64,000 bases of DNA, taken from Panorpa germanica. Lineage: Eukaryota; Arthropoda; Insecta; Mecoptera; Panorpidae. The notes below the pieces were generated by a model. The model worked only from the letters and a program-made list of their open reading frames with translations. It made no database searches and was not told where the DNA came from. The stretch lies in NCBI GenBank assembly GCA_963678705.1, contig OY783221.1, positions 8,556,001-8,620,000 of the forward strand. The letters run 5' to 3'. The translations under genes were made by a program, and so were the position numbers. Positions 11,601-62,100 of this stretch are shown piece by piece. The stretch's first letter is position 1. Every line of letters begins with the position of its first letter.

Positions 11601-13137
11601 ATGATAATAACCATAAAACCTTTTAACTAATTAATTAATAATCAATAATCATCCCACACATAAATATAATTTGTGATTATATTTATGACAATAACAGATA
11701 ATAATAAATTTAAAAAATGAACATTTTGATTTATATTACATTTTATAATTAATAACATTTAATATTTCATATATAATAATGAGAATTGCAAATCTATAAA
11801 TAATTAATTACCTACTATGACGTTTTTATTGATACGAATATTTATTATGATTATTTATTATACATTTTATTTATTATTATAAAAGTAATAACTAAATAAT
11901 TAATTTTAATTTTAAATTGCTACATCAATGTTTAAACTAAAAATAATATTTTTTTGATTTGTTGAAATATTTCACTAAATTGAAACAATCTAATTGCAAA
12001 AATGAATTACTGGCATATTTCCACAAAACACGAAACATGTTTGCTTAAACAAAATCTTGTAACATTTAATCTAAAAGAATCTAAATTTTATACTGTTGTA
12101 TTTATATTGTACTGTCATGTTATATTGTATTGTAAGTTCATTTAGCTATAACAAAGTATTTACTTCATATACCATTGATAACAAAGTTATATTATCTTAA
12201 AGTACAAGGTTAACTATTAAGGTCAAGTAATTTGTTTTCAAAAACTTGTCTATTGTCTAGCTATTGAAATTCGTTAAAATTAACTTGCCCTACTTTCAAA
12301 ATAAACCACGTATTGTTAGCGTTAACTCGCCCTTTGATTCCCTTTATAATATTGGACCTACCTGAACCTAAACATATGTCTAACAATATTACGCAATGTA
12401 TTTCTAAGAACTACAGCTCTTGACATTAATTACATAACAGTCAAAGTCAACACAATATATTGTATACCACTTATATAAGCGGTTTACAATTTGTAATTAA
12501 TAAATCCTAATTATTCCTGACAATATTTATTTCATCCTATATTATAATGTTCCAACTGAAAGTGTATATGTTTATTTGTTTATATGTTTACGCGATTCGT
12601 ATAGTGGCTCAAAAACGGCTGCGCGCATTTTCCTGAAAATTGTCTATTTCGTAGAGAAGAAAATTCTAAGACTTTTGGCGCACTCGGATTTTCCCCTGAA
12701 TTTCCTGGAAACCCATAATTTTGAAAAAATTAATAAAAAATTTTTACTTTTTACTCTATAACTTTTAATTCATAAAAGATGAAAATGAAAAGAATAAATT
12801 AAATTCAATGCCCACACAAAAGAAAGTCGTCGCTTGCGACGGGGATAAACTCCAGTTTATAATATAAATCTAAAAAGAAAACAAATTTTTTTCTTTCTAC
12901 ATATATAAAACAATAAAACAGGAAGCACTATTACTGTAATTGGACTACTCTACAGAGAATCAATTGCACTCAACGTTTAAATTAGCTAAATTAATCAATT
13001 CTCGAATTTACCGGTTTTGTAAACGTATTTCAGTTCGATAATACGATGGTGTCACAAAAGCCAATTACGTTTTGTTAATACCATACGATTAGTACAAAAC
13101 GAAATACAATACAAAGGTTTTATGGTGTTAATATATA

Positions 13138-28700: not shown

Positions 28701-31700
28701 GACCCGGCGAACTTCGTACCGCCTAACAGTCAATGAATGTCGTGTTACCTTTTAGCTGAACTAATTTAGGCTTTGATGAACGTAATACAATGATACAAAA
28801 TAATATTTATTAATATAGATAGAAAAGTATTTTATTATGATGAATAATAATAAAAACATACAGAATGAGAATAAAAATTAAAAAATTAATAATAATTAAG
28901 TAATTCAAACTCATGTCAGAAAAAAATGAGTGAAACCTATGTTGTGCAGATTGGAATACACTCGGATTAATTCAATAATGGGATTTTCATTCAAGCACCT
29001 TGTGGTAAACGACATTCTTTGTTTTTTGGTCAGGCGCAAGAACAAATAAAGCGGATGGTTTGCCGACACGTGAGCATGCCACGTACAATTGACCATGAGA
29101 AAAACATGCATTTTCTAGATTGAGGCCACAAATAGTCAAGGATTGGCCCTGTGATTTGTTAATCGTTATGGCGAAGGCAAGACGAATCGGGAATTGAATT
29201 CGTTTAAACTCAAATGGCATATCCGTTGGGATCATCGGAATTCTTGGAATAAGAACTTCCTCATCTTTAAATTTTCCTTTAAGTATCGACGCGTGAATCA
29301 CATTGCTCATCAGTTTTTTTATTACCAAACGCGTTCCATTGCACAGTTTTGGTTGGTTTAAATTTCTAAGCATGATGACTACCGAGCCAACCTTAAGTTT
29401 TAAATTGTGCGGTGGTAAACCAGGCACATCCAAGGAGTTTAAAAATTCACTTGGATAATTAGTGGCTTCTTCTTCGTTTGTTACACAGTCGATAGATTTG
29501 AATGAATACAGAGTACCTACGATTTGATTTTGAATTATAAAATTGAGGTCATCTACATCTTTATTTTTAGCTGCCAAAATTGCTCGCTCACTTAACCATA
29601 TAGTATTTTTGTGGTTAGCAATGATATCCGGGAATACTTTGTTGATAAGCTCGTCTTTTGATGATACAAAATTGCAAACATTTGGAGGAAATGAAATCAA
29701 ACCGCTCGATTTGTCAACAGGAACACGGCCATTACCGATAGTCAGCAATTGCTTCGAGAAATCATCAGCAGATAGATCGTTCAACAATGCAACTCTCATA
29801 TTTACAGACAGTTGAAGTTTCTTTACATATCGCCACAGATTTGATGCTTTGAGGCAAGCGTTTATTTCGTCGGCAGCAGTAGATCTTGGAATGACTGGTA
29901 GTGTTTGTCGGAAATCGCCAGATAATAAAATCATTGCACCACCAAAACATCTCGAGTCATTGCGCAGATCTTTTAATGTTCGGTCTAGTGCTTCCAATGC
30001 GCGTTTGTGCGCCATTGTGCATTCGTCCCATATGATGATTTTTGATGCTACTAAAACTTTGGCCATTGCGGAGTGTTTCGAAATGTTACATGTCGGTTGT
30101 TCAGTAGTTTGAAGGTTTAATGGCAATTTTAACGCTGAGTGAGCCGTACGGCATCCGTCTAACAATGTGGCCGCTATTCCAGAAGAAGCAATTGCTACCG
30201 CAATTTCGGATCTCGCACGTACAGTGGCCAAAATCAATGACATGAGGAATGTCTTCCCAGTTCCACCGGGGGCATCTAAAAAAAATAAGCCGCCATTTCC
30301 ATCATCAATTGCATTAATCAGTAAATCATAGACTTCCCTCTGCTTAGGATTCAACAGAGGTACATTCGTTTGGACTGATTGGATTAGTTCATGTGGATCA
30401 TATTCACGTTCACGTTCCAATTCTCTATTAAATGCGTCATTCATTCCGCGATCTGGCGCTGGCATTCCTAACCTAACTAACAAACTGCCGCACATGAGGT
30501 AACACATATCTTCGATCAAGAGCAAAGTCTGGTTATGCATCTCCTCATTCACCTCAAGATCGGAATTTCTTGAGCTGACGCGAATTCGATGTAAAATATC
30601 TTCAGACATGTTATCTTTGTATTTGTTCCATAGGTCACGTGGGTTCGATGGGAAGCATGTCGAAATGATGATAGCAAATAATGTGCGTATCTGACTTGGA
30701 GATGCAGAAATAATTGCTTCAGCGATTGTCGTGTCCCAATGAGTATCGTTTTCAAGCAAATTCAGCTCTTGACATGCTGCACGAAATGTGGGGCACACTA
30801 TACCATTAACAGTTCGTAGTGATTCAAATGATGTTGGCCCTCGAACATGTACCAGCAACAACCGCAAATAGAAACATTCATCATTCTTCGGATGAACTGT
30901 GTAAATACGACCAAGAGCATCAGTAGAATGCATATCTGGATAACCAGGAACTGCCGTCTCTGCCGTCAATTTTCGTGGATACCGTTTGGAACACTTGCCG
31001 TCGACCATGCACGGTGATTGGCGGTTGATAGTGCCACACGGTCCATGAATCATATTCGTGATTACAACATCATGTAGGTCTGGATCGGTTTCAGGAGCAG
31101 GAATCTCCGCACATATGATGTCATCTATTTGATCTGGCCGAATTCTTTCGACTAACCAAATTAGAATGTGAGCATGCGGCAGGCCTCGTTTTTGCCATTC
31201 GATTGAATACATCCAGCATCGAGTATTCCCAAAGACGTGTTGCTTAACAATGTAATTCATTAGTGACCGAATTTTTTGCCTGAAAACACGTGCGGTGATG
31301 TCGTGTCGATCACTTGATGTTTGTCCGGGAAGCAGCAATTGAATAATTTCTATCCATTTCGGATTACATGTAAATGTAATGAATAGATCTGGCCGACCAT
31401 AATGACGAACATATGTCATTGCATCTTGCGCATATTCATGCAAATGACGCGGGCTACCTGTGTATGTCGCCGGTAAAATAGTCAATCGACCAACATTTTC
31501 TGAATCTCCTTCTGTGCTAATTGCATCGCGTAAATGAATATACTCTTCTGAACGCAATTTAACTTGATTCAACCGAATGAAAGTCAGGCGCTCCGTTTCG
31601 ATTTTAACGTACATGTCAACGCAATATTGTTGAAGCAGTCGACGAAATCGCAACAAATAATTGTCAGAATTTTCACGAATCATCAAACGGTATGCGTAAT

Positions 31701-34700
31701 AATTCATTGAACTAACCTTCTTGGTAGTTTCCTCACCTGGAACAAATGCAGTAAAAATTGTATTTTAGAATCCCTAATAGGTTAACGACTCTTACAGCTA
31801 CTCTCTACTAAATTAGAAATTACAACTTTTTTTGGGTACTAAAAGCAAACAGAATAAAATGTATATCAAGTTTAAATGAAAACAACAATATTAATCTTAC
31901 CATTCAATGGATTAATCATTTTGATATTAAAGTGATATCCATCGTCTCCTTGCCAAAACATCAGCGGGTATTGTAACGTGTCATATGAACGGTGTGTTTC
32001 ATATATTCTTTGTAGTTGCCCAGTATTGCGCCGTGTAAGTACAATATCACGTGTTTCCAAGTTTTCACCAACAATCAGGATTGCCACTTCATCGATTGTT
32101 GGAGCATTAAATGTGCGTTCATGTGTTCCAGCTGGTCTTTTATCTGCTCTGATCACAACTTTATAGTCATCACTTGGCATGCGCTCTAATGCAGTCTTGA
32201 ACAGCCTGACCAATGCATGATGTTCATGAAGCATTTGCTGCAGATGTTGGAGAATTGCTCTTTTCGTAGCTGTGTTGATCCCTTGACGCCGGTCAAGTTG
32301 TTCTTCCATATTGCCCATGAAGTATATTTGCAAGAATTTATGCTGTGCATCTTCTATAGGTTGCAATGATCCAATGCGATGGCAAATCTGGCCTTGAATC
32401 TGTGAAGTCAAAGCCATAGTTATAGTTAGATTGACAAACACTTTTTTTACAAACACTTTTTTTTTCAAATAATAACATGCCATTTTTATTTCAGAGACAA
32501 ATACAGAAATCTAACAAACTACATTCCAGATTTTTTTTACAATCATAGAAAATATAGTTTTTAACGTAAATTACCTTAAATGTCGGATTATATCCGTGTT
32601 CTTCGATAATTTCCGCCCCAAATGAAGTCATTTGGAAACAGACATTGTATTTTTGAGTGTTCGCTAGAAAATGTCGTGATTCTAGTGTTTCGCCATAAAG
32701 CAGGGAGCACAATGGCTCTGGTGGCGGGACCAATGATGGCAATTTCACTTTACCACTAAGGCAGCACAAACCAGGCGTTTCACCAGCAAACCTCAATGCT
32801 CCACAATGCTGGCAAACAACGTCCATTGGACCAATGCAAACTAAACGATGCAAGCTGTAGTCGATGGTGCAATCATATAGAAACGCTGCTCGATTCAAAT
32901 CAATACTTGAACCATTTCTTCTTGCACTTCGAAGATTATTCCTCTGTTCATCTGTACGATAAGCTCGACGATTCCTCGTTTCTAACCTAGCCGTTTCACG
33001 GGCTACCTCTCTTTGCTCTTGTGTTTGAGAAGCACGAATTAAGGCCCTTCTTTGCTCCATACTAACGCGGTGCTCTTCTCGTGCAATTTCTCGTTCTTCA
33101 TCAGATAATTGACTCGCGATATTCCGTTGCCTAATTGCATTACGGCTCCGCTGGGAAAGATTAGATCTTCTAGGACGCGGCATAGTTATTAATATAAATA
33201 CTGAATGTGCACTCGCATAAAACCACAAAAAACCACTTTCGAGATATAGACAATAGCTCAAAGAGTATATAAGCACTACATATGAATAGCTTATCAAGAA
33301 AAATTATAGTTATAGATAACCTATAAAAAGACATTTACACTTTTGTTAACGTGTACAATAAATCTTAGGTATTATTTTCTGAAATTAAAAATTAAATAAT
33401 TAATAAATAATTTACACAAATTAATGTCTAAAACAAACAAATATAACAGTACCTGAACTTTCGACACATTTTACAAAAAATAAATTTCTGAACGCACATA
33501 TGAATAGTTGTTACATGTTGTCATGGCAACAAATGTTTGACATGAAATAAACAAATGAGCATTTATTGAAATGTTTAAGTATCGAGTTTTCATTGTCGAG
33601 TTTTTTAAATTTCGAATTTTCATTGTTGTAACAAACCCGTCTTTGTTTTATATATTTTCATTGTTTTTAAGATGTATTATGCTATTCGGGGCGAAGACAA
33701 ATCCAACGAATCAATAACCATGAATATTGGTTCAGCAGATCTCGAGTTATAAGTGTTGCAACAAACCCGTCTTTCTTTTATATATTAAGATTATGTAAGC
33801 TTCTTTGGCAAGTTTATGAAATACTAAAAGAAGTGACCCTTTTTGATTGAGAAACCGAAATTTATAACAGCTGTGGCTATGAACAGATCATTCTTGTTGT
33901 CGGGATACAAAATTTAGTTAAAGTAAAATTAAAGTTAAAGCAGAAAATTATTATGGGCGATAAAAGGCTACGTGCCTATGAAGCCCGAGACCTAGGTACA
34001 AGATGTAACACTGTAAGTAGTTTGTTTAACGCTAGCAGGTGTAAAATTGCACTTTAATATGAAAATGAAACTTGAAATGAGCTTGTAGCACGCTAATAAA
34101 TGTGAAATTAGCAGTGCAAAGTAATTTTCCACCTCAGGATCTTTAGCGCGATAAGTTATTTTAAAAATCCAGCGATTTAAAGTAAACGATGATACCATTA
34201 TATACCAAATAAGCTGTTAGCGGTAAAGAAGTGATTTAACTCGTATGGATCGTATAAACTATAAACCCTAAAGGTCTAAGGGGTGATGGTTCATAGTTGT
34301 CAGTGTTGTCAGGGTACGCAACCCCTCATTCTTCAATCTGAATTCCATCCCTTCTTATGAACATGTAATGTCCCATTTCTGTATACCTTAGCTTCTTATA
34401 CTCTTCGTATCTCATGCTACCATGTTCTCATTTTGTCATTTTATAGACGCAAATAAAGTCCCGACCGTCGCAATTTAACGATTACTTTCTGGAATATTCA
34501 CCTCGGAGTGGGGTGAGTGAGAGGTTTCCTCCAACCATGACACAGTTCGCTCCGGGAGCTTTAAAAGCTCCATGGAGAAGGTATAATACGCGATGTTTAT
34601 CGAGAAATAAAAATTAATTAAATAGATTGTAATGAAATTATATAAAACGGTTTTTGATATTTTATTTTTCCTATTGTATAGCTTTATCCGTGTTTGTTTT

Positions 34701-40700: not shown

Positions 40701-42424
40701 GATACTCACATTTGTGTGACAGCTATTAAGTTTTAATATACTCATATGTTTTTTTCTTTATAGCCTTTGTTGATAGAACCTTCAACACCACAAAAGAAAG
40801 AAGAGATTGTTCCAGTAATTCCTCGACAGGAAACTCCACAACCCGCTAGTATATTACCGGATGTGCCAAGTCAACCTGCTACTCCACGAAGTACTGCAAG
40901 TCGACCACCAACGCCTGCAACGCCGCAACAAAACGTGCAGCCACCACAAGAAACAACACCTGTAGCGCCTCCACCAGTTCCTGTGGTTGATGGGAAGAAT
41001 GTAGTGAAACCCGGCGTGCTACGATTTGGACCACAGGAGGAGTTTCCTCTGGCTGCTTTCGGTACTACAAAGCCCACATCAGCTACTGGTGAGTAATTAA
41101 TAAAAAACGATAAAATTTATTCTAGGAGCATGAGCATTATTTTTATTTATTCATAACATTTGTTATTTATAGGAACGCCATCCACAGCGTCGAATAACGC
41201 AAGCGCAGTTTCTGGTATTAGGACAGTTAGTGCAGCGATGGCGCCTAACTCTGGTCCTCCAAGTACTCCAGAATCAGCACATCAGCCGTCATTCCCGAAT
41301 CACGCTCAGGGTCCACCAATGCCTCCTTCCCCTGTACAAATGCCAAATCTTCCACCGGGTCCCGCTGGAGCTCAAGCAGTTCCTGCTCTTCAAATGGTTC
41401 AACCAATTGTAAATAACCATACGAATCCTCCACCACCTCAAAGTATAGTAACAAGTGGACAAAAACCACTCCCACAATTTAAAGTAAAACCGACAGCAGC
41501 ATTAATGCCGGATGAAAAGAAAGATAATAGAAATATTAAACCACCTGGTTACAAAAAGAAAAATCGTAAGTCGCCTGCAGGAAGTCCACATCCACCGCCA
41601 GAACAACCAAACTTTGGAATGGATCAGCCTGGAAGGGAGGAGGTTCAGAGCCCGGCTTACTCAGACATTTCTGATGATGCTGCGCCTATACTGGACGGGG
41701 TAGAACTAGGAGACAAATCTAAGAGTTCGGATAAGAAAACGGAAACTACTGCTCCTTTAACACATGCGATACCACAATATGGTATGTATCCATATTATGG
41801 CCAGTCTCAATATTTAGTGGCATCAGGACCAAGTCAACCAAACTCGGATAGTGTTAAAAATAAAGAAACAGAAAAGTCTATTGAAAAACAATCTGGAGAA
41901 AAAGAAGTTATTAAACGAGAAGTGCAAGAAATTCCACAAAAGATATTACCGCAACATTTTTATCCTTATGGATATATTCAACCGGGATATACGTACAACG
42001 TGGACCCAAACTATCCACAAGTGGGAGCACTTATACCAGAAGAAAAAATTAAAGAAGAAAGGACAAAGGAAACACCTAGTCCAGCAGATCATAGTGTGAA
42101 ACCTCAACCACTTACAATACCAAATTCAATTTTAGTTTCAACGCCCGGTAAAATTAAAACCGAACCGCCTAGTAGTAAGGAACAGAAACATCAAAATGAA
42201 AATCATCAAATTCTCAAGGAAAGTATTGAAATGAAAAATCAAATGACACCTTCCTACCTTTACCAAAGGCAACAAACCCATCATCAACAACAAAGTCAAC
42301 AACAACAAGTGCAGCAACAACAACAACAACAAGCCCAACAACAGGCACAGGGACAACAACAGCAGCAGCAGCAACAACAACAGCAGCAGCAGCAGCAACA
42401 ACAGCAACAGGCGCAACAACAAGC

Positions 42425-42466
<42 letters not shown>

Positions 42467-42487
42467 GCAGCAGCAACAGCAGCAACA

Positions 42488-42553
<66 letters not shown>

Positions 42554-44923
42554 CCAACAACGAGAGGAAGAAATGAGGAGGTATGTTTTTAATAAAGAGT
42601 TTCGTTTTGTAATTGTTAGTATTAAAGGTTAGCTATAAAAAAATAATTTTGTTTTAGGTACTATTTATATTCTGATCAACAGAGAAGAAAGGAAGGTTCG
42701 GAACAAGGTCCTGTTAAATCGGGCAATCCTCCAAATAAACAATCACAGTCAAATAAACATGGTTCAAATAAAGACAATAAAGTACCTGAAGATTTCTCTA
42801 AAATTAAAGAAGAAAAACCAATAAAACAGGAAGGTCAAAAACCAACAATGGAAACCCAAGGCCCTCCTCCCCCACCAACGTCACAATACGCTTACATTCA
42901 TCCTGGGTACATGCAACCCCCTCACTATGGAGCGTTACCATTTGATCCAAATCATCCGATGTATCGAGGTATGATAGTACCAGGAGCGTATGGAGGCAAC
43001 CCTTACTTACACCCGTCTCAGATGCCTCGTTACCATGCCCCTGAAGATTTATCCAGACCTCCCCAAGTTCCATCTAAGGCGATTGATATATTGCAACACC
43101 ACGCGAATCAATATTACACGTCACACAAAATTCACGAGTTACAAGAACGTGCGCTAAAATCACCTACTCCGAAATCATCAGCAGCAAATGCTAGTCCTAG
43201 CAGTAACAATGGCGGTCCACCACAGGGGCCCCCACCTTCTACACAGTCAGGAGCACCTGCAGCACATCAATCGGGACCTCCGGGTACGCCTGGTGGTAAA
43301 CAAACACCAGGTGATGGAAAAGATTCAAGATCACCACCGCCACAAAGACATGTACATACGCATCATCATACACACGTGGGGTTGGGATACCCTTTGCTAG
43401 CGGGACAATATCCGGCGACGTATGGAGGTAAGCCTCTTGTTAGACCTTGACAATAAGGCACATGGACATGTGGTTGTTAAATATTCGAACTGAAATTATA
43501 TATTACGTTTATTTAGGGAACAGATTTGTTGTTAATGGTAATTTCTAGTACGCCATATTGGTGATTCCATATTTGATTACATGCGGTTTGTTGTAACATT
43601 GTTAGAGCACAATTAATTATATCTTAAAATAGCATAGAATTATTCGAATACAGTAACGCCTCTATGATTGAACTGAAAGTAATTTGTAGGTTATATGTGT
43701 CACCATAAACACAGCTACCACGTGTAACAAGTTTTGTATAACATAGAGACCGTTATATTACAAATAACGTGTTTTAAATGTTACGTAAGTGTGATGAATA
43801 TGTTCTCTATATTTTACGAAACTGTTGCATACTATAATTGTGTTTCCGTGAAATTTGATTGACTATCAAAAATGAAAGAAGACATATAATCCTACATTCT
43901 ACAAAAGTTATTTTAAAAACTCGTTATAGAAATGTTACTGTATTTTTAATAAACATGTAAAATATCTTTAAAAAACGTAAATTGTGTCGCAAAGAAATAC
44001 GCTTTTATTTTTCTCTTGTATGGGTGAAAATACTATTATAAAAACTACGATATTTAACATGTATTTTAAACAAACATGTCTGTGATATATCATAGTTTTC
44101 TTTCATTCAAAAGTAAATATTTTTCATTTTCAAGTAAAAACATTTGTTTTATAAACATCAGATATTGTTGCACGGATGAAATTCTAGTTTTTAATTGTGT
44201 GCTTTATTCATTATTTAGTCTTCCACATATTTATTATTGAGTTTCGAAATATTGTTGTACGTGAGATGTTGCTATTGCAATTAAAATTTTAAGACAATAT
44301 TTATATGATTAGTGCTTGGTAAGAAATATTGTTTACGTTTTTTAAATCGCTAGCTCATCCCGAAATTTTTATAAAATCTAAACTTTAATATGCAATACGT
44401 ATACAAAAGAGCAATATTTGTTTGTAGTATTTGCAACGCCTCGTAGTTATATATTTAAGCACTTTAAAATTATGTGGTAAATATTTTGCGCTAAATTAAA
44501 TATAAATAGAAGCTTGATTACTAATTTAACTTACTAAATGTTTTGTTTTCAAGCTAAGTTATATTTATTTTTAGTTAAACACTCTACTCAGTAAGCACAA
44601 TACGTTACACATAACGTAAAATATATGGCTCATTTACGTAACATTAATGTTCACGGCAGATTTTTAATATTTGTCGGGCAAAATGTTGCTCCATGAGTAA
44701 ATTGTGCATTTGACCTACACGAGTACGTGTTAGATGTATTAGACACCCTGTATGTAGATATAAGTAGATAGTTTTGTAATGGGGAGTAATTTAGTGTGAA
44801 ATTGGGATTATTGGTTGACAATTTTTAAAAGTCTGACGTGGCTGTTTCTTGGTTGCAGCCGCAGTGCTGGCGAGCCAGCAAGCAGCCGCTGTGACGGTTC
44901 TCAACCCGTATCCGCCAAAATGA
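19580..44923 (+). CDS. sbb: Scribbler/Brakeless (ZNF608/ZNF609 family) transcriptional cofactor, 5'-partial
   Basis: Seven exons splice in frame: 19580-19703, 38571-38658, 39851-40433, 40764-41088, 41173-42580, 42658-43427 and 44859-44923. All introns are GT-AG. The 1120 residues present end in LNPYPPK at the TGA at 44921. Residues 1-70 hold the family signature ([57 protein letters not shown]). A single C2H2-like finger ([19 protein letters not shown]) is at about 206-229. Long Pro/Ser/Thr-rich disordered regions and a polyGln tract at about 745-836 follow. The conserved C-terminal [15 protein letters not shown] block, then ASQQ, ends the protein. Family members are nuclear; fly Brakeless is a co-repressor (with Tailless) needed in photoreceptor axon targeting and larval behaviour. 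The N-terminal exons lie before the window or were not detected. Confidence 0.93.
20688..20790 (+). repeat. dispersed repeat, uninterrupted copy
   Basis: CTAATTTAATCTCTATATTT and the following roughly 75 bases, through TTATAAATG, match 61430-61514 with scattered substitutions. In the 61-kb copy the match stops where an AATGGGCTTGTG MITE begins. The repeat itself is not assigned to a family. Confidence 0.65.
24490..24650 (+). repeat. SINE-like fragment (TTCTGGGTTTGGTT family)
   Basis: TATCTCCGGAACAGCGTTTT followed by TATATTCTGGGTTTGGTTCT aligns with 60485-60540 (CCCCGGTATATTTTCTGGGT) and, inverted, with 62265-62320. The latter reads CCGGATCAGCGCTATATATT followed by CTGGGTTTGGTTGTG on the minus strand. 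The segment just upstream in the 60.5-kb copy is a perfect B box. This suggests that these are bodies of a tRNA-derived SINE with the head lost here. Confidence 0.5.
24855..25050. mobile_element. palindromic MITE, copy B
   Basis: It runs from ACGATAGTTCGGCGGTGACT to GAGTCGCCGACGAACTCTC. The body (AGGTTATAAGAGCGGTATAA, then TTATCTTATTCGTTTCTATA) is the reverse complement of the matching part of copies A and C, so this copy lies in the opposite orientation. It lies in sbb intron 19704-38570. Confidence 0.8.
26713..27165 (-). mobile_element. 5'-truncated LINE with terminal ORF2-type C terminus
   Basis: A minus-strand open frame (start codon at 27142, stop at 26804) encodes 112 residues. These include [33 protein letters not shown] and a cysteine cluster [16 protein letters not shown]. 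That is the usual CxCG...FEC zinc-knuckle-like end of non-LTR retrotransposon ORF2 proteins, with Asn where His is normal. A short 3'UTR (AAAGTCAAGGCAAAGAAG) and a poly(A) run (plus-strand T tract 26713-26727) follow. The frame remains open upstream for several codons (KGRDYY) and then ends in TTTGTATTTGTATTTG, where truncation probably occurred. It is not a host gene. Confidence 0.82.
28331..28443. mobile_element. palindromic MITE, internally deleted copy E
   Basis: CAAATTACGAGAGATATAAT and CACCGCCCAGGTTTCGTAAT keep the family's outer termini. AGCATACCATCTCTTGTAAC and CCCTTTTAGGCATAAATC match the right half. Most of the left half is missing. Confidence 0.55.
28706..28723 (-). terminator. Helitron 3' hairpin
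   Basis: GGCGAACTTCGTACCGCC forms a short stem (GGCG with CGCC, nested GAA/TTC) a few bases inside the CTAG end. In Helitrons such a hairpin marks the end of the transferred strand. Confidence 0.75.
28987..33183 (-). CDS. Helitron RepHel protein (HUH endonuclease-like plus PIF1-type helicase), catalytic-tyrosine region missing
   Basis: Exons 33183-32575, 32399-31901 and 31736-28987 join in frame to 1285 residues. The start MPRPRRSN was chosen at 33183. Both introns are GT-AG, and splicing restores family continuity (NPTFK to [16 protein letters not shown] to [10 protein letters not shown]). Residues 380-660 are Rep, with FTCNPKW near 491-497 and the HUH motif [11 protein letters not shown] (His 557 and 559). 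Residues 820-1285 are a complete helicase: Walker A GGTGKT (860-865), [22 protein letters not shown] and VACSRV. Between [17 protein letters not shown] and [11 protein letters not shown] the usual roughly 200-residue stretch with the two active-site tyrosines (KYxxKYxxKG-like) is absent, yet the frame is kept. The protein could unwind DNA but should not nick and join it. It is probably a dead or dependent copy. Confidence 0.85.
33630..33790 (-). repeat. duplicated Helitron 5' terminal block
   Basis: AACAAACCCGTCTTTGTTTTATATATT (33632-33660) and the copy ending at 33786 are near-identical and lie in the same orientation about 125 bp apart. Either a second Helitron start was acquired upstream, or one end was duplicated. 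Confidence 0.65.
33800..33990. repeat. dispersed repeat, copy 1
   Basis: TTGAGAAACCGAAATTTATA followed by ATGAACAGATCATTCTTGTT and GGGCGATAAAAGGCTACGTG matches 35270-35393 in the same order and orientation. The 3' block can fold (GGCTACGTGCC...AGCC). I cannot assign a family. Confidence 0.7.
34807..35400 (-). mobile_element. possible non-autonomous Helitron
   Basis: The plus-strand motif ACTAGCTAAACCCAGGCACG at 34806 parallels the 3' end of the coding Helitron (ACTAGCTGACCCGGCGAACT): CTAG followed by T on the minus strand, with a GC-rich block just inside. The hairpin is weak. The upstream limit is unclear and may coincide with the TATATATA stretch near 35400. No protein is encoded. Confidence 0.4.
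35265..35395. repeat. dispersed repeat, copy 2
   Basis: This is the partner of 33800-33990. The shared blocks are ATTGAGAAACCGAAATTTAT, TCATTCTTGTTGTC and GGGCGATAAAAGGCTACGTG. It diverges between the blocks. Confidence 0.7.
35574..35656 (-). repeat. tRNA-derived SINE head with A and B boxes
   Basis: On the minus strand, GACGGCGCAGTAGCAGAAGG provides an A box (GGCGCAGTAGCAGAAGGCG), and about 45 bases later GGTTCGATTC is a perfect B box. The roughly 75-base span is the size of a tRNA. The acceptor stems do not pair well and no anticodon stem is obvious. I therefore read it as a SINE promoter region rather than a functional tRNA gene. The downstream body (CAATACATATCAACATAAAT) is AT-rich. Confidence 0.6.
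36011..36035. repeat. (TA)n microsatellite
   Basis: Twelve or so TA units in sbb intron DNA. Confidence 0.9.
36040..38420. other. non-coding intron stretch
   Basis: There is no gene in this stretch. The segments 36160-36280 and 37070-37240 are less AT-rich than the rest but give no recognisable protein or terminal repeat. A T-tract of about 18 lies near 38107. Confidence 0.45.
38421..38479 (-). mobile_element. TIR-only remnant of the AATGGGCTTGTG MITE
   Basis: AATGGGCTTGTGTCCTCATT plus TTTTAGTGG, then after a few bases ACATAGGACACAAGCCCATT. These are the right and left termini of the 520-630-bp elements at 55-62 kb, joined with almost the whole interior deleted. The 59-bp result is nearly a perfect palindrome. 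It lies about 90 bp upstream of an sbb acceptor site. Confidence 0.85.
38571..38658 (+). CDS. sbb: sbb coding exon b
   Basis: It completes the split glycine and encodes [20 protein letters not shown] followed by TKHDWAPPR. This is one of the most conserved stretches between insect Brakeless and vertebrate ZNF608/609. It ends in phase 2 before GGTAAGCA. Confidence 0.95.
39360..39640 (+). promoter_or_regulatory. GC-richer intronic segment, possible internal regulatory region
   Basis: Within the 1.2-kb intron between exons b and c, this stretch is clearly less AT-rich than the flanks and non-repetitive. It has GGTTTCCATTGGGTTCCATA, ACCGACCGACCGGC and GCTCCCGAGGCGAGGC. No open frame or splice pair is convincing. 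An internal promoter or conserved enhancer of sbb is possible, but this is inference from base composition only. Confidence 0.25.
39851..40433 (+). CDS. sbb: sbb coding exon c, zinc finger exon
   Basis: It encodes [20 protein letters not shown], then basic and Ser/Thr/Pro-rich linkers ([16 protein letters not shown]), then the single zinc finger [24 protein letters not shown] at 40254-40326 and an acidic tail. It ends in phase 0 before GGTTTGCT, a non-consensus but acceptable donor. If the donor is not used, translation continues into intron sequence for about 75 residues to a TAA-class stop near 40660. This would truncate the protein just after the zinc finger. Confidence 0.93.
40764..41088 (+). 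CDS. sbb: sbb coding exon d
   Basis: It encodes [20 protein letters not shown] and a proline-rich linker, then [20 protein letters not shown], a conserved block of the family. The exon ends in phase 1 before GGTGAGTA. The next intron is only 84 bp. Confidence 0.93.
41173..42580 (+). CDS. sbb: sbb coding exon e, polyglutamine exon
   Basis: This is the largest exon (1408 bp). Conserved islands include [40 protein letters not shown] and a tyrosine-rich [13 protein letters not shown] stretch, separated by charged and Pro-rich disordered sequence. The 3' end holds a tract of about 90 residues that is almost all glutamine (42286-42560), encoded by mixed CAA and CAG. It ends REEEMRR in phase 2 before GGTATGTT. 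Confidence 0.95.
42286..42560 (+). repeat. sbb: polyglutamine-coding CAA/CAG repeat
   Basis: About 275 bp of interleaved CAA and CAG codons lie in frame, broken only by rare Ala, Val, Ser, Gly and His codons. Codon mixing makes replication slippage less likely than in a pure CAG run. The opposite strand is open as poly-Leu, which is a shadow. Confidence 0.95.
42658..43427 (+). CDS. sbb: sbb coding exon f
   Basis: It encodes [13 protein letters not shown], a Lys/Glu linker, a tyrosine/proline-rich region ([20 protein letters not shown]), the conserved [20 protein letters not shown] helix, and the signature [20 protein letters not shown]. It ends in phase 1 inside a glycine or alanine codon before GGTAAGCC. 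Read-through of this donor gives KPLVRP and a stop at 43448, a possible short alternative C terminus. Confidence 0.95.
43428..44858 (+). other. sbb: sbb intron or alternative 3'UTR
   Basis: No gene of its own is present. If the donor at 43428 is skipped, translation stops at 43448-43450. An AATAAA near 43948 could serve as a polyadenylation signal for that form. Otherwise this is an intron ending in CTTGGTTGCAG. Confidence 0.55.
44859..44923 (+). CDS. sbb: sbb terminal coding exon
   Basis: It encodes [21 protein letters not shown] and ends at TGA (44921-44923). The ASQQ...YPPP-like ending matches the C terminus of vertebrate ZNF609. A second acceptor-like CAG lies 6 bases downstream (TTGCAGCCGCAG), which could remove two alanine codons. 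Confidence 0.88.

Positions 44924-47497: not shown

Positions 47498-47587
<90 letters not shown>
47498..47587. repeat. (TA)n microsatellite, about 45 units
   Basis: Ninety bases of nearly perfect TA, with one AA interruption near 47561. Such tracts can extrude as cruciforms and often vary in length between individuals. Confidence 0.95.
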
Positions 47588-48450: not shown

Positions 48451-48623
48451 AAAAGCATTTTTTTATTTACTTGATGTCTATATCTTCTACTTGTCTATTC
48501 TTTTACTTTTTAGATGCAGTTATGTTCATTATGTTCTATAATAACGAAGTATTTAAATACATTTTAAATGTCTAATGTATGATTTTGACTATTATGAAAT
48601 GCCTTATTGTTTTAATAACTGGT

Positions 48624-48700
48624 GTAACTTAGGTTGCAATCTGTCTAGGCGCAAAGCCGGATAGCTTAATGCGCCATCTGCTAAACGAATCCTTAATAAT
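48624..48700 (+). repeat. left flanking direct repeat of the palindromic array
   Basis: GTAACTTAGGTTGCAATCTG followed by TCTAGGCGCAAA and GCGCCATCTGCTAA resembles 51288-51345 (GTAACTTTTGTTGCAGATTG, TTTAGGCGCAAA, TGCCATCTATTGAA) in the same orientation. The pair brackets the array at 48840-51065. Confidence 0.6.
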
Positions 48701-48839
48701 TATCTAAATCAATCAAGATAACGCTGATAGATCAGATATTGAATGAATATGATGTAAGTTCAATGCGATTTGGGCTGTTATGCGACCTTTTTTAAATTCG
48801 TGGACATTTTTATTTAAAGAAAAATTACATTTCTTTGAA

Positions 48840-51065
48840 ATTTTTTGATGCAGTTATGTTCGTTATGCTCTGTAAAGATAAACTGCTTGAGTACATTTTA
48901 AATATTATGCGACCTTTTTTAAATTCATGGACTTTTTTTCTAAAAAGAAATTTTACATTTCTTTGAATTTTTTGATGCAGTTATGTTCATTATGCTCTAA
49001 GAAGAAAAACTGCTTCATTACATTTTAAATGTCTAAGCGGTTTTGGATTTTAAGCGACCTTTTTTAAAGCTATGGACACTTTTTTCTAAAAAAAAAATTT
49101 ACATTTCTTTGAATTTTTTTATGCAGTTATATTCTTTATGCTCTAAGAAGAAAAACTGCTTCATTACATTTTAAATATCTAAGCGATTTTGGCTTTTATG
49201 CGACCTTTTTTAAATTCATGGACATTTTTTTTCTAAAATTTTTTTTTTATTCTTTGGAATATTTTGATACAGTTATGTTCCTTATGCTCTAAAATAAAAA
49301 ACTGCATCATTAGATTTTAAATATCTAAGCGATTTTGGCTTTTATGCAACATTTTTTAAATTCATGGACATTTTTTTCTAAATTTTTTTTTTGATTCTTT
49401 GGAATATTTTGATGCAGTTATGTTCCTTATGCTCTAAAATAAAAAACTGCATCATTAGATTTTAAATATCTAAGCGATTTTGGCATTTATGCGACCTTTT
49501 TTAAATCCATGGACATTTTTTTTCTAAATTTTTTTTTTGATTCTTTAGAATAATTTGATGCAGTTATGTTCGTTATGCTCTGAAATAAAAAACTGCATCA
49601 TTAGATTTTAAATACCTACGCGATTTTGGCTTTTATGCGACTTTTTCTATTTTCATGGACATTTTTTTCAAAAAGAAAAAATTGCATTTTCTTGATTTTT
49701 TTTATGCAGTTATGTTCGCTATGCTTTAAAATAAAGAACTGCATCATTAGATTTTAAATATGTACGCAGGAACTCAAAAAATTGCATTGCTCTTAAAATC
49801 ATAAAAGTGAACCTTTTCATCATTTTTAACAAGATTATAGCCTTCTTTCATTGAAAAACTGAAGAAGAAAATATGTTATTTTTATAACGATTTTTTATAT
49901 AATTTTGAATGCTGATTTTAAAATTGTAATTAATTTTTAGATAAGTCTTTTGGTTTACGAGATATCGCCATAAAAAGTCGAACAATTTTTATGAAAAGTA
50001 AGAAGACTATACTCTTCTTACTTTTCATAAAAATTTAAGAAATATATATGTAATTTTATAACGGATTTTAACTTAACTTTGAATGCTGATTTCAAATTTA
50101 TAATTCATTTTTAAATAAGTATTTTAGTTTATGATATATGAATATATTAAATCTCTATATAGAAAGAAGACTATAATCTTGTTAAAAATGATGAAAAGGT
50201 TCACTTTTATGATTTTAAGAGCAATGCAATTTTTTGAGTTCCTGCGTAGATATTTAAAATCTAATGATGCAGTTCTTTATTTTAAAGCATAGCGAACATA
50301 ACTACATCAAAAAAATTCAAGAAAATGTAATTTTTTCTTTTTGAAAAAAATGTCCATGAAAATAGAAAAAGTCGCATAAAAGCCAAAATCGCGTAAGTAT
50401 TTAAAATCTAATGATGCAGTTTTTTATTTTAGAGCATAAGGAACATAACTGCATCAAATTATTCTAAAGAATCAAAAAAAAATTTAGAAAAAAAATGTCC
50501 ATGGATTTAAAAAAGGTCGCATAAATGCCAAAATCGCTTAGATATTTAAAATCTAATGATGCAGTTTTTTATTTTAGAGCATAAGGAACATAACTGCATC
50601 AAAATATTCCAAAGAATCAAAAAAAAATTTTAGAAAAAAATGTCCATGAATTTAAAAAATGTCGCATAAAAGCCAAAGTCGCGTAGGTATTTAAAATATA
50701 ATGATGCAGTTTTTTATTTTAGAGCATAAGGAACATAACTGCATCAAATTATTCCGAAGAATCCAAAAAAAATTTTAGAAAAAAAATGTCCATGAAAATA
50801 AAAAAGGTCGAATAAAAGCCAGAATCGCTTAGATATTAAAAATGTAATAAAGCAGTTTTTTATTTTAGAGCATACCGAACATAACTGCATCAAATTATTC
50901 CAAAGAATCAAATAAAAATTTTTGAAAAAAAATGTCCATAAAAATAAAAAATATCGCATAAAACCTAAAATCGCGTAGGTATCTAAAATCTAATGATGCA
51001 GTTTTTTATATTAAAGCATAAGGAACATAACTGTATCAAAATATTTAAAAGAATGAAAAGAAAAA
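48840..51065. repeat. giant palindrome of about 146-bp tandem units
   Basis: In the left arm the phrase GATGCAGTTATGTTC...TATGCTCT recurs near 48848, 48974, 49120, 49267, 49411, 49557 and 49703, giving a period of about 146. In the right arm the reverse form GCATAAGGAACATAACTGCATC recurs near 50288, 50434, 50579, 50724, 50870 and 51016. Each unit also holds GCGATTTTGGCTTTTATGCG, ATTCATGGACATTTTTTT and an inner inverted pair (ATGCAGTT/AACTGCAT). The two arms meet around a perfect core hairpin at 49988-50036. A further fragment of the unit lies near 48512. Open frames here are shadows of the low-complexity sequence. Confidence 0.92.
49988..50036. repeat. core hairpin of the palindrome
   Basis: TTTTTATGAAAAGTAAGAAG is followed, after a few bases (ACTATACT), by CTTCTTACTTTTCATAAAAA, a near-perfect 20-plus-bp stem centred at about 50012. 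On either side lie two direct, not inverted, copies of an AATATATG...TTTGAATGCTGATTT block. Beyond those the long inverted arms begin (TTAAAATCATAAAAGTGAAC on the left, its complement on the right). Confidence 0.9.
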
Positions 51066-51287
51066 ATTAAAAAAAGGGCCATGAACTTAATTACTTACGA
51101 GCAAAATTTACAGTACAAGAAAATCATGTATTTTGCTATTATTTTCTGACAATAATTACAGACGAAATATAACAATTAATTGAAGGCGGAAGGAATATTC
51201 CTTTAAGACACTCATGTGCCTTAGTTTATCATTAAAAATTCAAGGTTTTTATCAATTTTAACAAGAAATGTGTTGTGAAGCTAATGT

Positions 51288-51345
51288 GTAACTTTTGTTG
51301 CAGATTGTTTAGGCGCAAACAAATTGGTCTGCCATCTATTGAATA
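51288..51345 (+). repeat. right flanking direct repeat of the palindromic array
   Basis: Partner of 48624-48700. It starts GTAACTTTTGTTGCAGATTG and includes TTTAGGCGCAAA and GCCATCTATTGAAT. Confidence 0.6.
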
Positions 51346-51457
51346 AATATTTAACTACACAATTATTTTAGCTACATTTTGGCTACAATATATAATGCAT
51401 AGATGATAGATGGATAATAGGCAATAAAACAAATGTGTTTTGCTTAATATAATACTT

Positions 51458-54500: not shown

Positions 54501-57500
54501 TATCGGCTACAGATGACGGAACCACTCCACCTGTCGGAATACAAATGAAGATAAAGTTGATGCGAACTATAATTGAAGTGAAATAGTGATAGAAACGTCA
54601 CTAAATAGGGCACTTCACCAAATTGTTTACTGGGTAACCTAAAAAGACACCCACGTTCTCGCAAATTAAATATTACAATAAATCGTATTAATATAAATAA
54701 TGAATGTGTCATCTACGTAACATTTACATAGCAAAACAAACGCGGTATATTTTTCCACATATTTTAATTGACGTAAATTGCGTGGGGTTACACGAGGTCG
54801 ATGATTTTTCAGGCTCACAAACCTATGAAAGAGTATAATTCATTTAAGCTTTTTAAAGTTATAATTAAGATGGATTAGTCAAGGTCTTACATTTGTAAAT
54901 TTAAACTAAGTTAATAAATTAAGTGCGTTGTATAATTTTATCTAGTTTAAGTACAAGGTCATTTTACGAAGTAAACCAGTAATAGAATATTTCCGAGTTT
55001 TAGTCAAATTTCAGCCAATTATACTGTTTAAATATTTTGTTCAAATTTTACATATATAATTATGTTAACATACTTATGCAATAACGATGAAGAAGGAAAG
55101 GAAAACAATGTTTTCTATAATTGGATTTTTGATTCATGTACCCATTTAGCAAGTGTAAATATGCATTACCACGCAATGGGCTTGTGAACTCATTTTCTAG
55201 GGATCGTTTTTTTTAAATTTTCTATTGAAATATCCAAAAGTTGACGAAGTTATAGCTATATCAAATTTGAATTTCAGTTTTGCTGATGAAATTAATAATC
55301 GAGCTTATTTTTCCTTTTTCACAACCATCCCAATTTATTAGTTGATGGAATACACAACTCAGCCGTTAGTAGTAAATGACGTATCACACACACACACTCG
55401 TATGCGTTTCTCTTGTATGACAAAGAGTAGTACCATGTCTTGGAATGTTCTATAATGTTGGATCCCTTTAATAATTGAAGAGACAAAATGACTTTTTGGA
55501 TAGTTAATAGCTCCTAAAATATAGCGAGTTCTGGTAGACTTTATCAATATATAGTTTTATAGAAATTAAGTAATGATTCACAAGCCCATTTCTGTAGTAG
55601 AAACCCTGCAATGGGCTTGTGTCCTATGTCTTAATTTCTATAAAAGTGTACTATATATTGATAAAGTGGGTTACTAGAACCTCAAATGTTCAATTATTTT
55701 TTAATAACTCCTTATATGTTAAGAGATATTAACAAGTCATTTTGTCTCTTTAATTATTAGAGGGATTCAACGTTGTACACATTCCAAATGCATGTGACAT
55801 CACAATCGCTGTCAACCTTACAGCTCATAAATCTCTGCTATATGTATTTATATATCAAAATATCAAATATTATTTACAGCTATTTCAAGTAACAATCAAA
55901 TTTCAATATTATGTCTGCCTTAGCAGGGTTAAATGAAATAAAAACTTATTATTCTTTGATTTGACTTGATTATTTGACTACCAACAGCTACAGAACATTA
56001 CCACAGCACTGACCTACTCAATAAATAACTGACGTTATTTAATAAAATAGACACGCCAATACACATTTATTAACATCAATTTCAATAAACAATTGAAAAA
56101 TCGACCACTAAAAAATGAGGACACAAGCCCATTAGCTTGTGACAAGTGTGAATCTTGCATTGCAAGACGGCGTTCTGTCAAAACAAAATAAATAATTGCC
56201 ACTGAACGCTGTTATGTATTGCATTGTATGTATTTATTGGAGGAAATGCATTGTGTAACATCAAACGCTATATGCAATTAAATGACACTGCATAAAAATA
56301 TAAACATAAACCAGGGTCCACAAATGCGTGTTCACTTATTGGCGCTCTTTTCCGATTCGTACGCTTTGATGTGTGTTGTTTACCGCTTTTCATGTACAGA
56401 TACTGGATACATGAATGTTTGCTCTGCTTGTGCGAACAATCGGACACGAGCACGCTTGTTTGGACCCAATATAAGACCAATGTATGTATCTATTCAATAA
56501 GATGAAAAATCTTGAAAACAATAATAAAATTACCTCATAACTTGAAGTAATCTGTAGTTTATAAAATACAGGCAAATAAACGAAGGCCATCGTAACGGAA
56601 ACCAGACATTCGGAGCACACGATCATCCAGTACTGTGTCCCATAAGTGTACATCTCTGCCGGAAGTCCCAGGAGCGAAATTCCGGATATGTAACTGGAAA
56701 AGCCAAATAATGATTACCATCAAATAATGTAGGTATCAATTCTTTTTTGGTAAACAATTTTGGGAAGAAAGAAAGTAAGAATTGATTTATAGCCGATTTA
56801 GTTTTTGAGATAGAAGCTAATTTGATAAAAATGATCAGATATCCCTTTGAACAGCAAAATGGACATGCAATATTTCTTTGTTTTTTATGTCTTTGTCAGA
56901 AATGTCATGATTTAAAGAAATCAATATATACTTAACGAACCTTTCTCCTTGAATCTTTGAATCATGACATTATTGATAAGTAAAGACCAATTTCGGTCAA
57001 CCCAGTGCTGATTCTTAACCTTGTTGCCTCAAAGACATACAAAAAATTGAAATTTTATATGTTCACTTTGCCATCCAAGTAGCAACTGGACCAAGTTGGA
57101 CCAATCAAATTAGTTAAATCACGTTACTCTGTATCTCAGAAACTAGCCCTGATAGATCAAATTGGATGGCTCTTTTCATTCTGTGCCCAAAAGTTACTCA
57201 AAAATAGTCAAGAAATGGCAAAATTTTGTGTGGATTAGTGTTCTCTATCTATATAATTAAAAATTAAATGCTGTTCTTGGTAAACGCACCACTTGAAAAC
57301 GGCTGGACCGATTTGTCTTCTTTTCTTTTTTTAATGTTCGTAATAGTCTGCATAAAAGTTGCTCGGAAAATCAGAAAATTCTGGAAAAACTGAAGGTGCT
57401 TTTTTGGTGCTATAAGATTTCCCTACTAGGTGCAGTTGAATTGTGAAAATATTTATTGAAATTTGGACAGGACAATATTTGGCGGGTCTACTAGTATATT

Positions 57501-59507: not shown

Positions 59508-60137
59508 AATTGGCTTGTGTCCTATGTCTTAATTTCTATAAAAGTGTACTATATATTGATAAAGTGGGTTACTAGAACCTCAAATGTTCAATTATTTTTT
59601 AATAACTCCTTATATGTTAAGAGATATTAACAATTAAAAAAGTCGTTTTGTCTCTTTAATTATTAAAGGGATTCAACGTTGTACACATTCCAAGTGCATG
59701 TGACTTCACAATCCTTGTGTAAGGTTACCAACCTTACAGCTCATAAATCTCTGCTATATGTATTTATATATCAAAGTATCAAATATTATTTACAACTATT
59801 TCAAGGAACAATAAAATTTCAATATTCAATAGCAGGGTTAAATAAAATAAAAACTTATTATTCTTTAACTTGACTTGATTATTTGACTACCAACAGCTAC
59901 AAAACATTACCACAGCACTGACCTACTCAACAAATAACTGACGTTAAAATGCATTTCACGTCATACAAATATGGCCGACCATTCCTAGCGCTAAAACTAC
60001 AATTCAAACTTTTAATTGCTATATCTCCGTTAACATTTAGATATTTAATAAAATAGACACGCCAATACACTTATTAACATCAATTTCAATCAACAATTGA
60101 AAAATCGACCACTGAAAAATGAGGACACAAGCCCATT
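59508..60137 (+). mobile_element. MITE of the AATGGGCTTGTG family, longest copy
   Basis: It starts AATTGGCTTGTGTCCTATGT (one mismatch in the terminus) and ends ATGAGGACACAAGCCCATT. It contains the ATGCATTTCACGTCATACAA ATATGGCCGACCATT block shared with 61510-62100. There is no reading frame of note. Confidence 0.9.
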
Positions 60138-61509: not shown

Positions 61510-62100
61510 AATGGGCTTGTGTCCTATGTCTTAATTTCTATAAAAGTGTACTATATATTGATAAAGTGGGTTACTAGAACCTGAAATGTCCAATTATTTT
61601 TTAATAACTCATTATATGTTAAAAGATATTAACAATTAAAAAAGTCATTTCATCTCTTTAATTATTAAAGAGATTCAACGTTGTACACATTCCAAGTGCA
61701 TGTGACATCACAATCGCTGCCAACCTTACAGCTCACAAATCTCTGCTATATATCAAAATATCAAATATTATTTACAGCTATTTCAAGGAACAATCAAATT
61801 TCAATATTATGTCTGCCTTAGCAGGGTTAAATAAAATAAAATCTTATTATTCTTTGATTTGACTTGATTATTTGACTACCTACCTACTCAACAAATAACT
61901 GACGTTAAAATGCATTTCACGTCATACAAATATGGCCGACCATTTCTAGCGCTAAAACTACAATTCAAACTTTTAATTGCTATATCTACGTCAACATTTA
62001 GATATTTAATAAAATAGACACGTCAATACACATTTATTAACTTTAATTTAAATGAACAATTGAAAAATTGACCACTAAAAAATGAGGACAGAAACCCATT
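61510..62100 (+). mobile_element. MITE of the AATGGGCTTGTG family
   Basis: It begins AATGGGCTTGTGTCCTATGT and ends ATGAGGACAGAAACCCATT (two changes in the right terminus). The body is nearly identical to 59508-60137, apart from small deletions. It lies upstream of the SLC5 gene. Confidence 0.9.

Follow-up and report, generated by a model that had tools for sequence, protein, structure and literature searches.

What forms the large inverted repeat that lies between two genes of the insect Panorpa germanica is the question raised by the 64,000-nt stretch of contig OY783221.1 (by contig order, probably chromosome 18) analyzed here (hereafter the window). An earlier note, made from the sequence alone, had described the feature as a palindrome of about 2.2 kb built from 146-bp units and had named a fold-back transposon among its possible sources. 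Pfam analysis identified the gene on the right as a sodium:solute symporter encoded on the minus strand. The gene on the left, which we take to be sbb, includes two frames that had no Pfam match and contains a long CAA/CAG run encoding glutamine (42285–42561). The window also contains Helitron-type replication/helicase frames on the minus strand (28987–33303, with Helitron_like_N and PIF1 domains in 28987–31764), a run of approximately 45 TA pairs (47498–47587), and a repeat of approximately 600 bp that occurs three times in the transporter gene region (55611–56133, 59512–60137, and 61511–62100) and is also present at another locus, L017. None of the open reading frames longer than 81 aa in the window overlapped the palindrome.

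Tandem-period analysis and a unit profile demonstrated that seven 146-bp units run head-to-tail on the plus strand in the left arm (48780–49767) and that six units run in the reversed orientation, on the minus strand, in the right arm (50244–51090), with a tandem period of 145–146 in both. Inverted-repeat analysis showed 89% complementarity between the arms across up to 586 nt. Every unit contains a small internal inverted repeat, TGATGCAG...CTGCATCA, as the earlier note had recognized. The 477-bp core between the arms (49768–50244, assigned to neither strand) was recognized by the unit profile and core comparison as an imperfect inverted dimer akin to a 165–174-bp satellite monomer. Two perfect copies of a 49-nt box were located in it by sequence reading and box matching, one on the plus strand (49792–49840) and the other on the minus strand (50171–50219). 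At the center of the core is a hairpin with 23-nt arms and a 6-nt loop (49984–50035), in which 49984–50006 pair with 50013–50035 both by sequence reading and in an RNA-mode fold; the earlier note had placed a strong core hairpin near 50012, and this was confirmed. The fold of 49634–50378 had an energy of -372.8 kcal/mol, whereas 20 shuffles averaged -122.7 (sd 5.6). According to the unit-profile annotation, the core is only approximately 71% self-complementary. The window feature is therefore two inverted arrays flanking an imperfect core, not one continuous palindrome; the opposed head-to-tail arrays of the original description stand, and its continuity does not.

The edges of the feature, first placed at 48840 and 51065, were moved outward to 48780 and 51090. 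Farther to the left, a partial 146-bp unit on the plus strand (48498–48575; direct-repeat family D4, unit-profile span 48504–48575) is the left remnant of the array, and an insert of approximately 160 bp on the same strand (48600–48759, edges approximate), to which no kind was assigned, lies within the left array. Both are also present in L017. The insert is distantly related to 51272–51420, in the same orientation on the other side of the palindrome, and similar pieces were observed beside L017 and other copies. On the right, comparison with other copies revealed a truncated A module, a transposon end region, on the minus strand (51090–51261, end approximate), and a further A-module fragment of the same transposon family was observed at 12580–12773. 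The window copy thus has neither terminus: it breaks off in the partial unit at approximately 48498 on the left and retains only part of the A module on the right, its terminus missing.

A genome search with the 2226-bp feature gave at least 251 matches, with the best 40 of 1635 candidates scored. Units on the plus strand, a core, and units on the minus strand were identified by the unit profile in the window and in 27 of the 27 other loci fetched with the palindrome query. These 27 loci are the best matches to the window (from the best 40 of 1635 candidates scored), a choice that inflates their similarity; whole-genome counts and the copies retrieved with the A module provided a check on that bias. 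Since these loci share the structure and the assembly was built from 52-fold HiFi reads (464.2 Mb, 20 autosomes plus X; PMC11464959), an assembly artifact is very unlikely to be the source of the palindrome.

The copies varied considerably in their arms. Between 3 and 13 full units were present per arm, units of different elements differed by a mean of approximately 16–17% (11% for the innermost units), and 25 aligned cores, excluding the rearranged cores of L025–L028, differed by a mean of 4.9%. The core was symmetric, enlarged, or rebuilt in L025–L027, L038, and L039. Opposite arms of one element were separated by a distance of 0.151 (0.120 at equal position) versus 0.169 (0.157) between elements. 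Selection on arm pairing was rejected, since the two arms of an element are, on average, only a little closer to each other than arms taken from different elements. Together with the variable unit number, this small difference speaks against the palindrome itself being under strong selection. In some elements (L015, L020), the arms were homogenized with each other, but in many others they were not. The core had the same orientation relative to the A end in 11 and the opposite orientation in 5 of the 16 copies in which both could be read, as expected if the inverted arms recombine.

Sequence beyond the arms was common to many copies and was defined as the A module (approximately 680 bp). A genome search with this module alone gave at least 53 matches, with the best 40 of 4632 candidates scored. 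In all 13 A copies fetched, a selection from the 53 listed matches in which the inner A end (query 704 or 711) is always included, the array directly followed this end; the junction fell at unit position 10–13 in eight copies and within approximately 12 nt of A in five further copies. The inner A end resembles a Helitron end, with a 3' hairpin and CTRR, but a Helitron reading of the A module was rejected, since the array adjoins this end in 13 of 13 copies and target duplications flank the full copies. On the side opposite to A, part of the copies carry a B module (approximately 340 bp), and part finish in other sequence, termed module D. Inverted CAGTGGCGGCC repeats bound the element on the outside, and A and B carry CAGTGGCGGCCTTAG at their outer ends in mutually inverted form. 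The A terminus was recognized in 8 of 10 fetched A copies, all except L042 and L043, and its first 17 nt matched 808 genome sites with at most one mismatch, compared with 0 for the reversed control.

These ends decide how far the element can be regarded as a classical foldback, in which the long inverted arms would themselves be the ends. Tandem repeats within inverted arms, as in the foldback transposon Tetris, were present in the window and in the 27 fetched loci. However, where the ends of a copy were located, its arms stop internally at A and B, which showed no mutual match in the module scan and are alike only in the first 11–15 nt or so; long terminal inverted repeats reaching the ends were absent. 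On the evidence of these copies the classical foldback was rejected, and we regard it as highly improbable. A fold-back transposon was still the closest of the earlier guesses: a transposon with inverted tandem-repeat arms is indeed present, but its arms fall short of the ends, and these are formed by short inverted repeats of hAT type flanked by 8-bp target duplications.

CAG ends together with 8-bp target duplications are a hallmark of hAT transposons. Short terminal inverted repeats starting with CAG were present in the family and absent from the window copy, whose ends are lost. CAGTGGCGGCCTTAG and its inverted counterpart were found in the four copies with both ends located, and all four were flanked by 8-bp target duplications matching at 7, 7, 7, and 6 of 8 letters, none of them perfect. 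Random pairs of 8-mers reach at least 7 matches at a frequency of 0.0023 and at least 6 at 0.0154; when flanks were deliberately mismatched, 6 of 8 letters agreed in 1 of 12 pairs. Short derivatives with both ends were also identified, one of 337 bp with the A and B ends and no arrays (L007, 92–428) and another of 1174 bp with two units (L045). We conclude that the window feature is very probably an old, end-truncated copy of a high-copy, non-autonomous hAT-type transposon family in P. germanica. The family is a dispersed, end-defined, and apparently non-coding element with inverted satellite arrays.

Some copies have evidently multiplied together with their surroundings. L023 comprises two copies in tandem, and the closest relative of the window copy among the core matches is L017, which lies on the same contig at a distance of 110 kb, has a core identity of 99%, and shares left-flank sequence. 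Moreover, five B ends (L004, L011, L018, and two in L023) adjoin one stretch of an 87-bp repeat; these are therefore not independent insertions, and duplication with flanks multiplied some copies. Together with the regional clustering of sites described below, these observations would be expected if the feature were not a transposon and an inverted satellite had spread by segmental duplication alone. Against this explanation stand the defined, inverted termini, the presence of target duplications where flanks differ, and the short derivatives that have both ends, and we consider it improbable.

A hAT transposon that cannot move by itself would depend on a transposase supplied elsewhere. hAT transposase domains gave at least 150 matches in the genome (892 candidates), and two of the four hAT loci fetched (L052 and L053) had exact 8-bp duplications with CAG ends. 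Both contain hAT elements with long open frames and DUF4371 and hAT dimerization domains (L053, 1096–3528; L052, 608–3540), the latter presumably sitting inside an apparent copia-type frame. An autonomous partner with matching ends was not found, as none of the four fetched hAT loci has the ends of the family. The end of L052 resembled the A end to a degree that 4 of 1000 shuffles equaled, which is only suggestive. By position, the best candidate for such a partner was L055, which was rejected because it is a short A–B copy adjoining a separate hAT element.

In the hAT-type reading, a full copy consists of the terminus CAGTGGCGGCCTTAG, A (approximately 680 bp), several 146-bp units, the core, reversed units, B (approximately 340 bp), and the inverted terminus, with 8-bp target duplications outside; the core would be an inverted dimer of a 165–174-bp satellite. 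The ends, the target duplications, the dispersal, the variable unit number (3–13 full units per arm), and the two orientations that the core takes with respect to the A end are visible in the anatomy of the copies. The element may have been moved in trans by a hAT transposase, whereas unequal exchange would have grown and shrunk the arrays and recombination between the inverted arms would have flipped the core. Additional spread may have occurred through duplication along with flanking DNA. The core box would have stayed nearly unchanged since the copies separated, through either selection or ectopic conversion.

The uniformity of this box, present in two copies in the core, was evaluated at several scales. 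Among genome-wide 41-mers with at most 3 mismatches, 1158 of 1579 were perfect for the box; the arm unit had 178 perfect matches among 2505 and the mid-core 25 among 113, although these two are single consensus words of subfamily-bearing variable regions, which lowers their perfect share. Backward controls gave 0 for each of the three. In the fetched palindrome and A loci, 66 boxes were perfect over 49 nt, 15 had one mismatch, and 4 had two, and the next match had 8. Singletons occurred in 3 of 2253 cells of the box versus 91 of 7275 cells of the mid-core (23 cores, without the near-duplicates L017 and L023b; Fisher P 6e-8). Across 86 arms of 39 loci, diversity per 10-nt bin was mostly 7–38% in the arms, 3–7% in the 30 nt that end the innermost unit, save for the junction bin (11–12%), and 0.2–0.9% in a 40-nt stretch of the outer inverted repeat of the core; upstream bins used 84 of the 86 arms, and left and right halves are mixed inside the core. 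Copies fetched through the A module, of which 11 of 12 have a core, matched the consensus at 67–72 of 72 and 73–75 of 75 positions in the outer core repeat arms and at 94–129 of 134 and 109–131 of 140 positions in two mid-core segments.

The box was also found outside the element, in tandem arrays of 165-bp monomers (L047) and 172-bp monomers (L048) that have the box in common and differ in the rest of the monomer. This marks the core as a relative of that satellite, arranged as an inverted dimer. Box segments were far more conserved than the remainder of the monomer, and local homogenization within arrays may account for some of the uniformity across the genome. Rfam gave no match in the window at the gathering score and only three matches with E values up to 1 in 49600–50400, all far below that score; an exact 27-mer of the box gave no match in viral_contigs.

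The distribution of the box along chromosomes was assessed with one box variant, which has 94 exact sites, or 59 loci after merging within 100 kb. On the 10 chromosomes with at least three loci, its sites spanned a mean of 0.305 of the chromosome, below all 20,000 uniform simulations. The variant was absent from 7 of 21 chromosomes, of which C9 and C19 nonetheless carry cores. Exact A-terminus sites were less concentrated, with a mean span of 0.514, and 17 of 20,000 simulations were as low. The simulations used approximate guesses for the lengths of C16, C17, and C20 and took in 90 of the 91 exact terminus sites, two neighboring ones having been merged. Variants of the mid-core 41-mer looked chromosome-specific among the listed places, for example on C9 and C16, suggesting local multiplication. 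In the related genus Cerapanorpa, C-bands are described mostly at one end of the bivalent, and male meiosis as achiasmate (PMC5495786). A link between box sites and heterochromatin would be plausible.

The box seems to have been retained after insertion, because it has stayed intact while the target duplications decayed, with 5 of their 32 letters differing. Two explanations, which we consider about equally likely, may account for this. The box may, as one tentative reading, be under purifying selection in each copy, as a putative protein-binding site in a dispersed satellite or as the template of a satellite small RNA, for which the palindrome could supply a double-stranded precursor. Its excess of perfect 41-mers and scarcity of singletons relative to the mid-core, its stability next to decayed target duplications, the sharp inner boundary of the conserved stretch, and its presence in two arrays of otherwise differing monomers are consistent with selection. 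On the other hand, individual selection on more than 1000 copies would be unusual, the words used for comparison come from variable regions as stated above, and the window has no Rfam match at the gathering score. On the outer side, conservation climbs within the 30 nt of the innermost unit that adjoin the core, which fits conversion tracts equally well. Held as tentatively, the second explanation is that ectopic gene conversion, or repeated exchange among copies and satellite arrays, keeps the box uniform without any function. The pure 165- and 172-bp arrays, the homogenized arms of elements such as L015 and L020, the seemingly chromosome-specific mid-core variants, and the regional clustering of sites all point in this direction. 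Such conversion, however, would need to stop sharply at the inner side of the box, leaving the mid-core and arms unequal, and to act across chromosomes.

A more specific scenario appears rather doubtful. A hAT transposon would have captured and dispersed a functional satellite whose box is selected as a putative binding site for a chromosome protein, or as a small RNA from the double-stranded transcript of the palindrome, with approximately 1500 close copies concentrated in particular regions of many chromosomes of a scorpionfly, an insect group in which male meiosis is achiasmate. Small-RNA processing, as suggested earlier, would mainly concern the conserved box. The other earlier suggestions, a nucleosomal unit length, cruciform extrusion, and a boundary role, gained no support from the analysis.

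Short segments conserved among diverging satellite monomers have a precedent in the CENP-B box of alpha satellite. The tapiR satellite of Aedes likewise has a short conserved segment among diverging monomers and is described as the source of satellite-derived small RNAs (PMC9962485). The Panorpa box differs from both in its length of approximately 49 nt, in being found not only in arrays but also, as two inverted copies, in the core of a transposon, and in having no known function. In architecture, the nearest known element is Tetris of Drosophila virilis, described as a non-autonomous DNA transposon with opposed tandem-repeat arms of variable number (PMC4079207). Its repeats are reported to be approximately 220 bp long and to form longer satellite arrays as well, with target duplications of 8–10 bp (PMC4079207). 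In that account, the arms belong to long terminal inverted repeats that also include an outer domain, and Mutator is the affiliation suggested by the authors (PMC4079207). In contrast, A and B of the Panorpa element differ, its ends are short and of the hAT CAG type, and its core derives from a second satellite with a nearly invariant box. It shares CAG-type termini, 8-bp target duplications, and short internally deleted derivatives with other non-autonomous hAT elements but differs from them in that inverted satellite arrays make up approximately two thirds of a full copy. No description of the element was found by title or abstract in the open-access literature on foldbacks with tandem repeats, hAT elements with internal tandem repeats or satellites, insect satellite boxes, and Panorpa repeats, which leaves uncontradicted the original impression that it belongs to no named family.

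The element indicates that inverted satellite arrays are not confined to foldback elements, the type in which they were described before: here, two satellites are carried in this arrangement by a transposon whose ends are short and ordinary. Within it, one short sequence resists change amid decaying surroundings, and the idea of selected satellite boxes thereby becomes testable in an insect with a chromosome-level genome.
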